From positions 62,001-126,000 of the forward strand of contig JAFLVO010000001.1 in the NCBI GenBank assembly GCA_022508245.1: DNA of 64,000 nt. The letters run 5' to 3'. The position numbers were made by a program, and so were the translations under genes. Below the pieces are notes generated by a model. The model was not told where the DNA came from. It did not search any database and saw only the letters and a program-made list of their open reading frames with translations. Source of the DNA: Clostridiales bacterium. GTDB taxonomy: Bacteria; Bacillota; Clostridia; Christensenellales; Borkfalkiaceae. Below, piece after piece: positions 9,536 through 24,019 of the stretch; position 1 is the first letter of the stretch, and each line of letters starts with the position of its first letter.

Positions 9536-9701
9536 GCACTGTTAGCTCAACTGGATAGAGCGACGAGCAACGCATTTCTCAAAACAGTACGGTGTACTGT
9601 TTTGGCGGTGCGAGATGAGTGAGCGCATAGCCACGCGCGAACGGTGCCCGAGTTCGGCGCCTATTCCTTACGCCGAACGAGAGGTCTACGGAACCGAAGG
9701 C
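9536..9701 (+). pseudogene. Broken tRNA-Arg copy interrupted by about 120 bp
   Basis: Positions 9536-9562 repeat the first 27 bases of the intact tRNA-Arg exactly (acceptor strand and D arm). The anticodon-arm sequence GGTCTACGGAACCGAAGGC reappears only at 9683-9701, after about 120 bp of unrelated sequence that includes a perfect 10-bp hairpin (9581-9603). No T arm follows. The acceptor start GCACTGTTA occurs once more at 9518-9526. It is a decayed or rearranged duplicate and cannot fold as a tRNA. Confidence 0.65.
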
Positions 9702-9734
9702 GAGCCGTATAAATACCAAAAAACTTAATATTAT

Positions 9735-9810
<76 letters not shown>

Positions 9811-9811
<1 letters not shown>

Positions 9812-9867: not shown

Positions 9868-9958
9868 TGAGAACTCCTACAGTGCGCGCGAGGGCATAAG
9901 CCCGACGCTTTGCCGAGGCTCCGCTTGCGGAAACGGCAAAACCTCTTACGGTGCACCA
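9868..9958 (+). pseudogene. 3' remnant of a further tRNA-Arg copy
   Basis: CCTCTTACGGTGCACCA (9942-9958) repeats the T-stem, acceptor and CCA end of the intact tRNA, with one changed base at the discriminator. Another degenerate version, GAACTCCTACAGTGCGC, lies at about 9870. The D and anticodon arms are missing. A separate terminator follows, as if this was once a complete gene. Confidence 0.55.
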
Positions 9959-9959
9959 T

Positions 9960-10001
9960 ACGCAACCTTATTCGAATACCGAATATAGGTTGCGTTTTTT
10001 T
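9960..10001 (+). terminator. Terminator after the tRNA remnant
   Basis: ACGCAACCT (9960-9968) pairs with AGGTTGCGT (9987-9995), with an inner TATTCG/CGAATA extension and one bulge, followed by seven T. It also faces the 3' end of the DUF4062 gene on the other strand. Confidence 0.85.
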
Positions 10002-10064
10002 ATGCGAAAAGCGTACCGATTATATCCGTACGCTTTTATGGTTTTTATTGAATCATTTCAAATA

Positions 10065-11036
10065 TTAAAAAGGTATATCACCATCATCATCGAAAGGCGA
10101 AACGGTTTCAACTTCCTCCCATAAGATTAAGGATTTTAGCTTTTCCTTATTTCTAATATCTAATAAAATATAATTTTCATCAAATAAGTTTTCTGACAGT
10201 TTTAATGTTTGTGTCTTTTTTAGCATCTCTTTTGTATACACTCTTACCTTATCAGGCAATTCTTGCGATATTGAAAAACCTAATAAAGTCATAAATTCAT
10301 CGATTGTGTCAATATCATTGAGATATAAATATGCTTTTGATAATCCTAAATGATTTCTAATTATTTGCAAAGGCACTTTGTTTACTAAAACTGAACAATC
10401 AAATTTTTGCTTAAATTCTTCTTGCTCTTGAATAAAGTTAGACAAGATAGCTTTCATATTATCAGCCGTTTCTTGTAAATCATACATAGTTTTAGAATTT
10501 GTTAAAGTCGCTTCTTGGGTTAAGAGCCGTTGAAACATACCAGCAAATTGCAGTTTTAAATTTTCAATTATATCGCTTGTATTTTCGAATGCTATTATAG
10601 GGTTCTTTTTGACAGTTTGCTTTAATTCAGCAATAAACTCGTGAATTTTTATGTTATCAGCAAATGCAGGAACAAAACTACCGCTATCTTTGTTTTTTAA
10701 ATAGGTAGTGTTTTCAACAAAAACATCTTTCATAATGAAAATAAAAATTTTCTTTCTATCTTTCATAGCTGATTTTAGTTCATTCATTGTAATTGAGTAA
10801 TTATTTTCAGCAGAAGAAGAACCAAAATGATTGCCTATTATGCATACTAAAATATCGCAATTTTGTATTTCCTTATAACAATCATTTTCTAATGTTTCAC
10901 TTTGAGTATATGTAACGCCTGCTCGTTCGTGCATAACAGGTTCATATCCCAAGCTTTTTATAAAATCAGCAATGTTACTTCTTTCTTGCTTTAAATCATA
11001 GTAAGTTGAACTAATAAATATCTTTGGTACTGCCAT
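10065..11036 (-). CDS. DUF4062 protein with an SSB-like C-terminal peptide
   Basis: This 323-residue protein opens with the DUF4062 signature (PKIFISSTYYDLKQERSNI, residues 4-22). DUF4062 is a TIR-like/flavodoxin-like domain often found at the N-terminus of NACHT/STAND-type and other putative defence proteins. The domain runs to roughly residue 100. The rest is mostly helical with no ATPase motif, so it is a short stand-alone form. The last ten residues are PFDDDGDIPF; the SSB at 23594-24019 ends PFDDDSDIPF. This acidic D-I-P-F tip is the docking peptide SSB uses to bind repair and replication partners. The codons differ between the two genes, so the match is not a recent copy. The gene is AT-rich and lies beside a tRNA, which suggests transfer. 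A phage- or DNA-damage-related role is inference. Confidence 0.85.
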   Translation of the reverse strand: MAVPKIFISSTYYDLKQERSNIADFIKSLGYEPVMHERAGVTYTQSETLENDCYKEIQNCDILVCIIGNHFGSSSAENNYSITMNELKSAMKDRKKIFIFIMKDVFVENTTYLKNKDSGSFVPAFADNIKIHEFIAELKQTVKKNPIIAFENTSDIIENLKLQFAGMFQRLLTQEATLTNSKTMYDLQETADNMKAILSNFIQEQEEFKQKFDCSVLVNKVPLQIIRNHLGLSKAYLYLNDIDTIDEFMTLLGFSISQELPDKVRVYTKEMLKKTQTLKLSENLFDENYILLDIRNKEKLKSLILWEEVETVSPFDDDGDIPF

Positions 11037-11082
11037 TTGTAACTCCTTCTTTAAAATATATACTCCAATTCAATTTTTTTAA

Positions 11083-11110
11083 ATTATAAATTTGACTACT
11101 GATTAGTCAA
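11083..11110 (-). promoter_or_regulatory. Promoter and palindromic operator of the DUF4062 gene
   Basis: Read on the minus strand, TTGACT (11105-11110) and TATAAT (11083-11088) are 16 bp apart. The -35 box is the right arm of the inverted repeat TTGACTA-5 nt-TAGTCAA (11092-11110), a natural site for a dimeric repressor. AAGGAG lies 6-7 bp before the ATG. Confidence 0.6.
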
Positions 11111-11157
11111 CCTTCTTTCACATTTAAATTACTAAGTTGATTAGCCTCAAATTGAAA

Positions 11158-11916
11158 TTATTTAATAGCAATTACGATAGGTTGATAAAAGCGTGTCTCC
11201 TCTGGGAATTTCCACTCAACTTTTGTAAAACCACAAGAAAGTAGGTGTTGTGTTAATTCTTCTCTTTTAACGGCTCTATATTCGCAATCGAATTTGCCGA
11301 TACTTAAAGAATTTTCGTCGTCAATTATGTATTGAGTGAATTTATAGTTCTCGCCAAACCATTCCCAAGTTTGAAATGATACTTTTTGCCCTTTATCGGT
11401 TTTATGGATATAAGGCGTTGAGCATTGCGGTTTTTGCTTTAACAATTCGTCGTAATCACGAATACTTGCAACAAATATTCCACCTTTATCCGTTTGATTT
11501 GAAATGCTTTCAATAGCACAATGTAAATCTTCTTTTGAAAGCATATGGGGAAGGGCGTTGTCCATAGCAATTACTATATCAAATTTATCCAAAAAACTGT
11601 ACGACAGTTTGCAAAAGTTTGCTTGCTTAAAAGAAATAATTACACTGTTTGCTTTTGCTCTTTTTTCTGCCTCTTTTAATTCCCCGTCGCTTAAATCAGA
11701 AGCAGTTACTTTATACCCAAGCATAGCAAGACCTATTGCTTGCGTACCTATACCGCAAGCGCAATCAAGCAGTTTAGCATTTTTATTAAAGCCGTAAGAT
11801 ATAAAAATCTTATCAAGAATTTTTGCTTGAATTTTAGTTGTTTCAAGCCAATCTTGAAAAAGCATATCATATTGAGTTGCCATATCGTCATAAAACGATT
11901 TAATTTTATCTTTCAT
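11158..11916 (-). CDS. Class I SAM-dependent methyltransferase, substrate unknown
   Basis: This 252-residue protein has a Rossmann methyltransferase fold. Motif I is LLDCACGIGTQAIGLA (about residues 49-64), the acidic ribose-binding residue is in VTASDLSDGE, and motif IV-like IVIAMDNALPHM follows. The ACGIGTQ form of motif I resembles small-molecule N-methyltransferases of the glycine/sarcosine type, but the substrate cannot be read from sequence. The gene is AT-rich like the adjacent DUF4062 gene, though each has its own promoter and 121 bp lie between them. The -10 box is 6 nt before the ATG, so its mRNA is probably leaderless. Confidence 0.88.
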   Translation of the reverse strand: MKDKIKSFYDDMATQYDMLFQDWLETTKIQAKILDKIFISYGFNKNAKLLDCACGIGTQAIGLAMLGYKVTASDLSDGELKEAEKRAKANSVIISFKQANFCKLSYSFLDKFDIVIAMDNALPHMLSKEDLHCAIESISNQTDKGGIFVASIRDYDELLKQKPQCSTPYIHKTDKGQKVSFQTWEWFGENYKFTQYIIDDENSLSIGKFDCEYRAVKREELTQHLLSCGFTKVEWKFPEETRFYQPIVIAIK

Positions 11917-11922
11917 AGTTGC

Positions 11923-11951
11923 ATTATAACACTATTACTATAAAAAATCAA
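11923..11951 (-). promoter_or_regulatory. Leaderless-type promoter of the methyltransferase gene
   Basis: On the minus strand TTGATT (11946-11951) and TATAAT (11923-11928) are 17 bp apart, and the -10 box is only 6 nt from the ATG at 11916. No ribosome-binding site fits. Confidence 0.75.
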
Positions 11952-12084
11952 ACTTGTAAAGAGCTAATAAAATCAAATGGTACTGTTGCAGGTACTTGAT
12001 ATAATGATGTAACGAGCGGAGCACTTTTTGTGCCAAACCCGTTAAAATTCATAATATTTCTTACTAGCGTTGACAAGTTTGATT
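11946..12084. repeat. 12-bp inverted repeat spanning two divergent promoters
   Basis: AATCAAACTTGT (11946-11957) and ACAAGTTTGATT (12073-12084) are perfect reverse complements. One arm overlaps the -35 box of the methyltransferase and the other the -35 box of rubrerythrin. The ~115 bp between them contains no gene that I can see. Confidence 0.6.
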
Positions 12085-23593: not shown

Positions 23594-24019
23594 ATGAACA
23601 AAGTATTTTTGATTGGGAATTTAACTCGCGATCCCGAGCTTACGGAAACGGCATCCGGCGTGAAAATCTGCCGCTTTGCAATTGCCGTAAACCGCAGCTA
23701 TTCCGGCGGCGACGGTGAGAGAAAGACAGACTTTTTCAACTGCGTTGCATGGCGCGGCTTGGGCGAAACTATTGCAAGGTTTACCCGCAAGGGAACCAAA
23801 GTCGCGGTATCCGGTTCTATCGAACTCAGAAATTACGAGGATAATCAGGGCATCAAGCGCACGGCTGTTGACATTGTTGCGCAGGACGTGGAATTCCTTT
23901 CGCCCCGTGCAGGTTCTTCGGACTACGACGAGTTTTCCGAGCCTTCACAGCCCGCACCTGGCGGCAGGGCTAAACCTCAGCTTCAACCCTTCGACGACGA
24001 TAGCGATATTCCCTTTTAA
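23594..24019 (+). CDS. ssb: Single-stranded DNA-binding protein
   Basis: This 141-residue protein coats single-stranded DNA. The OB fold spans about 1-105 (MNKVFLIGNLTRDPEL ... FFNCVAWRGLGE), followed by a short Gly/Pro linker and the acidic tip PFDDDSDIPF (132-141). That tip docks partners such as RecQ, PriA, RecO and ExoI-type proteins. The same tip, with one changed residue, ends the DUF4062 protein at 10065-11036. It sits between rpsF and rpsR as usual in Firmicutes. Confidence 0.98.
   Translation: MNKVFLIGNLTRDPELTETASGVKICRFAIAVNRSYSGGDGERKTDFFNCVAWRGLGETIARFTRKGTKVAVSGSIELRNYEDNQGIKRTAVDIVAQDVEFLSPRAGSSDYDEFSEPSQPAPGGRAKPQLQPFDDDSDIPF

Follow-up and report, generated by a model that had tools for sequence, protein, structure and literature searches.

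The DNA analysed here (the window, a stretch of 64,000 nt from a Clostridiales bacterium) encodes a DUF4062 protein that closes with the tip of its host's SSB, and sequence comparison indicates that such a tail marks a DUF4062 clade with a shared C-terminal domain. In the reading that we consider best, and to which we give an even chance, the protein would be an abortive-infection NADase whose SSB tip docks into the pocket of replication or recombination proteins; of the versions of this reading, that of a decoy is preferred. Phage DNA replication would probably be sensed or reached through the tail.

The tail and its resemblance to the host SSB

The protein ends in SPFDDDGDIPF. Nine of its last ten residues equal those of the host SSB (PFDDDGDIPF against PFDDDSDIPF), as originally predicted, and the accompanying claim that the two stretches use different codons at most positions also holds, six of the ten being different. 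The match to Pfam DUF4062 (PF13271) at residues 5-90 reaches 79.9 bits against a curated cut-off of 24.7 (E 1.6e-22), and TIR_2 matches residues 6-104 under its cut-off; together with a fold that is TIR-like, this bears out the proposed TIR-like DUF4062 domain. An SSB domain was not found in the protein by Pfam. Given the low confidence of the structural model at its end (Table 1), the tail is probably flexible.

Table 1. Features of the window discussed in the text, with residue numbers referring to the DUF4062 protein
Feature	Position	Strand	Basis
DUF4062 protein gene, 323 aa, with SSB-tip tail	10065..11036	-	ORF; Pfam DUF4062 1.6e-22; relatives
TIR-like / deoxyribosyltransferase-like domain, residues 1-170	10527..11036	-	Fold
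Codon of Glu86, predicted catalytic residue	10779..10781	-	Invariant; aligned with KpSwz E97 site
Long predicted helix (stalk), residues 153-212	10401..10580	-	DSSP on model
Small alpha/beta C-terminal domain, about residues 221-310	10107..10376	-	C-terminal HMM of tailed family; model pLDDT 72
SSB-tip tail PFDDDGDIPF, residues 314-323	10068..10097	-	ORF sequence; model pLDDT 50-56 in last blocks
Host SSB, end QPFDDDSDIPF, tip PFDDDSDIPF	23594..24019	+	Pfam SSB 1.9e-32; sequence
Insert of about 2.1 kb (DUF4062 and methyltransferase genes), missing in close relative G035	9954..12063		Flank alignment
tRNA-Arg(ACG) at the insertion place	9735..9811	+	ARAGORN; about 250 nt from the DUF4062 gene end
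SAM-dependent methyltransferase on the insert, 121 nt upstream	11158..11916	-	Pfam Methyltransf_25 1.4e-13

Several observations bear on whether such an ending could be fortuitous. In the 1.66-Mb genome (97.6% complete), D-I-P-F followed by a stop occurs at three places, namely the DUF4062 gene, the SSB and a 44-codon open frame that has no acidic run, and the reversed pattern, used as a control in the same genome, occurs at none. In the loci examined, which were chosen for holding DUF4062 or SSB genes, 507 distinct ORFs begin with ATG and reach 150 aa or more, though they are not all genes. The tail pattern (a regular expression written after tails had been seen) ends 27 of them, comprising 24 DUF4062 proteins and 3 SSBs, and none of the others; in view of the choice of loci, only this absence from other ORFs is informative. 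The ending shared by DUF4062 proteins and SSBs exceeds chance.

A compositional accident, or an ending acquired from ssb by recombination, is accordingly an extremely improbable account of the tail. The near-identity of the two endings (26 of 33 nucleotides, stop included) would suit copying, and a second DUF4062 protein, L071, whose tail agrees with its host SSB at 10 of 11 residues, could likewise carry an old copy of an ssb end. The codons differ in both cases, however, including serine AGC against TCG, no other product among the 507 ORFs ends in this way, and the tail is kept across phyla while the linker before it diverges. As the reason for the retention of the tail, chance or copying is largely refuted by the ORF scan and by the conservation of the tail in 26 of 28 family members.

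Distribution of the tail among DUF4062 proteins

A scan of genome contigs recovered eight relatives, six of them matched across all 323 residues, and an SSB-like tip ends all eight. Their hosts are four Clostridia-type MAGs, Anaeromassilibacillus, a Burkholderiaceae MAG, Neptunitalea and Pedobacter. With the further members from IMG/VR scans and from genome searches (L057, L146 and L148), the tailed family spreads over Clostridia, Bacteroidota, a Burkholderiaceae MAG and prophage-like contigs. Its definition is independent of the tail, being based on an HMM of residues 176-305 only, in which 27 rows, representing 26 distinct proteins, have E values no higher than 1.9e-33 and the next row stands at 0.02; 25 of these 27 rows had built the HMM, L035 has the same sequence as L032, and L064 matches independently. 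L146 and L148, which end in ELENELPF and EDEDDDLPF, match the same HMM at 6.8e-29 and 3e-33, the profile that found them having included tail columns.

As counter-evidence the original prediction had named a lack of the tail among the homologues of most genomes, and this was not what was found: by recount, 26 of the 28 distinct family members end in an acidic stretch and x-Pro-Phe. The two exceptions without Pro-Phe, L039 (DDVEAIF) and L043 (DDVNLF), are both Phe-terminated after acidic residues. The residue x is Ile or Leu in most members, and Tyr in L009, Asp in L030, Asn in L034, Ser in L042 and Val in L036. In the 26-row alignment, the terminal Phe is the sole invariant column of the C-terminal half, and the linker preceding the tail is variable in both length and sequence. 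These counts omit duplicates (L001, identical to the window; L035, to L032; L056, to L012; L081, to L010; and the repeats L133-L138, L145 and L147), loci in which the end is cut (L085-L088 and L090-L093), L002, which was not read through, frames below 200 aa (L003, L094 and L095) and the 10 of 40 DUF4062 matches in one search that came without a locus.

Endings of this type might also mark the protein for degradation and so limit the amount of a toxic NADase, in the manner of LPF for ClpXP in Streptococcus mutans. A C-terminal LPF is reported to suffice for ClpXP degradation in S. mutans UA159, and the same report describes DDDLPF as unrecognised in E. coli and LPF as unrecognised in S. gordonii, the signal being effective neither in E. 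coli nor in two streptococci other than S. mutans (PMC5143411). The tails of the present family vary (IPF, LPF, YPF, DPF, NPF, SPF, VPF) yet stay acidic, whereas recognition of LPF needs no acidic residues, and a match to the host SSB would not be expected of such a signal, which makes this role very unlikely.

Beyond the family, the picture changes. Only one of 39 complete DUF4062 proteins without the family C-terminal domain, L071, bears the tail (L052, which ends in GFPF without an acidic stretch, was scored as tail-less), and the tail is therefore a feature of a clade and not of DUF4062 as a whole; the expectation of a tail in DUF4062 homologues thus stands for the family and fails for DUF4062 at large. 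L071, encoded in genome G932, ends in SSRKLDDEIPF and its host SSB in SSRDLDDEIPF, so that 10 of the 11 last residues are equal, and 25 of 36 nucleotides are identical to its ssb end, with AGC TCA AGA facing TCG TCG CGT. The HMM of the family's C-terminal domain does not match it. In a tree of 61 DUF4062 domains, a quick one in which some long branches are unsure, the family together with L040 forms one starred set (SH-aLRT 98) and L071 is placed in a distant branch among KpSwz-like proteins. The tail was thus gained at least twice, because L071 sits in this separate branch. L071 resembles the family in its SSB-tip tail (RKLDDEIPF), matched to its host SSB, and differs from it in its KpSwz-like branch, in giving no match to the C-terminal domain and in the separate origin of its tail. 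By its DUF4062 domain L040 belongs to the tailed clade, yet it has a different C-terminus and no tail, and the tail and the C-terminal domain therefore appear to have been swapped together; a tree that unites the 26 family rows without L040 is not rejected (p-AU 0.245).

The variable linker and the low-confidence tail are also compatible with an internal regulator, a tail that would keep the enzyme inactive by binding to the SSB OB-fold or to a domain of the protein itself, either the TIR-like or the C-terminal one. KpSwz, a DUF4062 NADase, is reported to be inactive until its activation (PMC13174449), in keeping with such a regulator. A regulator alone would nevertheless account neither for the agreement with the tip of the host SSB nor for the second gain, which took place on a different domain architecture, and we regard it as quite unlikely.

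The tail follows the SSB of its own host. In 11 of the 12 hosts with both endings known, the third-last residue is the same in the tail and in the tip-bearing host SSB: Ile in both for the window, L005, L006 and L071, and Leu in both for L007, L008, L011, L012, L057, L146 and L148, the mismatch being L009 with Tyr against Leu. No probability is claimed for this agreement, because the 12 host pairs fall in few lineages and are non-independent. The comparison is restricted to tip-bearing SSBs, as some paralogues are tip-less (for example L025 in the window's genome and L023 and L028 in G455) or have ends that were not read; a search of the genome of L010 found no SSB. With its conservation across the family, its second independent gain, its host-matched tip and its different codons, the tail looks selected, as had been suggested.

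The main rival to the bait version of the best reading draws on the same agreement. The tail may dock on host SSB-interacting proteins (RecO, PriA, RecQ, RecG, primase), either parking the protein at forks or acting as a guard, such that the NADase samples phage DNA or proteins at the forks, or stays inactive until phage takeover displaces it. In addition to the host-matched tip, the E. coli SSB tip is described as recruiting at least 17 proteins (PMC10018359), and for AbpAB, activation by phage SSB or by damage to the DNA of the host has been reported (PMC10732053). However, a constitutive peptide that competes for essential pockets could be costly to the cell, and we take docking on host proteins to be possible though rather doubtful.

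Insertion beside tRNA-Arg and the neighbourhoods of relatives

In the window, the DUF4062 gene is an acquired insert next to a tRNA. The DUF4062 and methyltransferase genes together make up an insert of about 2.1 kb, because the close relative G035 possesses the flanks without 9954-12063: its locus L139 aligns at 91-96% on either side and retains the order galE, tRNA-Arg, rubrerythrin. The methyltransferase has no match in the examined stretch of G035; it is the sole window neighbour checked for defence, and it shows a partial PADLOC match to mad2 (1.2e-15). A full-length copy of the DUF4062 gene is present in none of 36 same-genus genomes, and a class-wide search of 390 other genomes gave one partial match and no full-length copy. 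The gene has a GC content of 0.287 as compared to 0.456 for the window. Sporadic presence, an empty site and the defence or prophage neighbourhood of some relatives are all characteristics of a mobile defence gene, and the earlier description of an AT-rich, tRNA-adjacent gene resembling acquired defence genes is upheld by the GC content, the empty site in G035 and the location of several relatives among defence genes. As a separate observation on this site, a truncated 5' copy of tRNA-Arg lies at 9540-9575, about 200 nt upstream of the intact one, and stretches of the 9540-9811 region of the window match twice at the empty site of G035.

The contexts of the relatives, in which selected neighbours only were annotated by Pfam, are varied. 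L006 adjoins tRNA-Arg(ACG) and has type II R-M genes on its opposite side, and L034 lies near a Shedu gene. L007 is embedded in a type I restriction operon, in the order HsdR, DUF4062, HsdS, an unassigned 340-aa protein and HsdM; homologous flanking genes occur in the same order at L007:3246-10643, L008:3249-10533 and L009:3195-10491, of which L007 alone was annotated by Pfam. In Pedobacter (L012:660-4408), genes for an OLD/GajA-like ATPase-TOPRIM protein, the tailed DUF4062 protein and an HNH protein are adjacent and run in one direction. The gene that ends in DDVEAIF (L039:1363-9295) lies among ThsA (macro), ThsB TIR, TIR_2, SNase, KAP NTPase and HEPN genes; to judge by these neighbours, a locus of the Thoeris type may have taken it up.

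In prophage-like contigs (L030, L031, L033, L036, L038 and L042) the gene is cargo. At L030:2943-8953 it is flanked by P2-type tail-completion and baseplate genes, and neighbours of this locus recur at L031, L036 and L042; at L033:4522-8478 it is found between terminase and portal, and at L038:1580-6969 it follows an SPP1-type portal. The tested neighbours of L011, of L057 and one of those of L034 look like ordinary metabolic or chaperone genes, and the examined neighbours of L041, L043, L046 and L064, as well as one of two for L010, gave no Pfam match.

Predicted NADase activity and a possible role of the tail

DUF4062 proteins have been described as hydrolysing NAD+ and as TIR-like NADases in antiphage defence, under the name Swarozyc (bioRxiv, May 2026; PMC13174449). 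According to the same report, KpSwz protects E. coli via abortive infection, and its activator is the dodecameric phage portal, acting through an auxiliary domain (AUX). The original statement that no DUF4062 system with such a tail had been described holds to the extent that the words SSB and single-stranded are absent from the main text of that paper, the part covered here; it no longer holds for DUF4062 itself, which is now described as an NADase defence. Judged by titles and the beginnings of abstracts, none of the papers listed in the literature searches connects a DUF4062 or TIR protein with an SSB tip.

In the DUF4062 protein of the window the fold is TIR-like and the predicted catalytic Glu is retained. 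Glu86 is invariant in all 25 rows of the family alignment A3 and aligns with the Ala that the KpSwz chain has where E97 was mutated (the numbering offset being our own count), the solved construct being reported as E97A (PMC13174449). From these features we infer that the tailed protein is an NADase, although the fold of its N-terminal domain matches DNPH1, a nucleotide hydrolase, slightly better than TIR domains. The KpSwz type is characterised by an HTH/winged auxiliary domain, and the model of the C-terminal domain of the tailed protein gave no clear fold match, at a pLDDT of only 72 and with a fold library ending in April 2026.

For the decoy, the preferred version of the best reading, the following course may be envisaged. 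The SSB tip of the NADase would occupy the conserved pocket with which replication or recombination proteins bind SSB tips; phage multimers that need the SSB tip, such as annealing rings of the Sak, Erf or RecT type, or Orf, would bind the tails of several protomers; the docked rings would bring these protomers together, as happens to KpSwz on the portal ring; and clustering of the TIR-like domains would switch on NAD+ hydrolysis. Both the pocket docking and the phage protein as trigger are putative. We propose tentatively, at rather less than even confidence, that the protein is an NADase immune receptor with an SSB-tip bait which phage rings activate, the bait having been added independently to two DUF4062 architectures. 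This bait version is preferred because annealase rings would cluster protomers like the portal for KpSwz, and because proteins of this sort recognise a tip of the host type. The phage annealase Sak80alpha is reported to form heptadecameric rings and to work with its SSB via the last 7 residues of the latter; the same source notes that several defence systems target phage recombinases by mechanisms that it calls unclear (PMC11846896). The reach of RecT-type annealases has likewise been linked to the conserved SSB end (PMC10711431).

The best reading is favoured by the family-wide tail, the invariant terminal Phe, the second gain and the host-matched tip, by the variable linker and low-confidence tail, as would be expected of a flexible docking peptide, by the antiphage NADase activity of DUF4062 proteins, the alignment of Glu86 with E97 and the defence or prophage neighbours of several relatives, and by the action of a phage annealase through the last 7 SSB residues (PMC11846896). 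Against it stand the absence of a Pro-Phe end in L039 and L043, the tail-less L040 and the mismatched L009, as well as the few lineages covered by the host pairs and the slightly better match of the N-domain to DNPH1. In addition, the gene occurs in several prophage-like contigs, and the phages concerned must not set it off; for many relatives the neighbours are unannotated or have no Pfam match; KpSwz senses the portal, not an SSB-binding protein; and the C-terminal domain could be the sensor rather than the tail.

The known systems closest to the protein resemble it in different respects. With the C-terminus of SSB it has in common a flexible linker and a terminus in which I/L-P-F comes directly after acidic residues, yet it carries a TIR-like enzyme domain instead of an SSB domain. 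With Swarozyc (KpSwz, PDB 10wc) it shares the N-terminal DUF4062 TIR-like domain, the aligned catalytic Glu and the stalk helix, in addition to the organization as a single gene of about 320-330 aa that is patchy, mobile and found in defence neighbourhoods. The sequence match between the two proteins is nevertheless confined to the TIR-like part (residues 5-104), the HMM of the C-terminal domain of the tailed family has no match in the KpSwz-like L066-L070, and the AUX of KpSwz binds the phage portal, with an SSB tail unmentioned in the main text of its description. An SSB-tip mimic is not described in the cited accounts of AbpAB (PMC10732053) and SaPI2 Stl2 (PMC11846896) either, but these systems resemble the present one in that phage recombination or SSB machinery is sensed or blocked.

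A host-matched SSB-tip mimic that is kept by a clade points to a sensing principle other than the portal recognition of KpSwz, and opens to experiment the question of how recombinases and SSB of phages are sensed by defence systems that are unrelated to one another. Phages might hardly escape an SSB-tip bait, because the tip pocket is common to many essential proteins. Plant immune receptors carry integrated decoys, and the tailed DUF4062 proteins, if the proposal is true, would represent their bacterial parallel.
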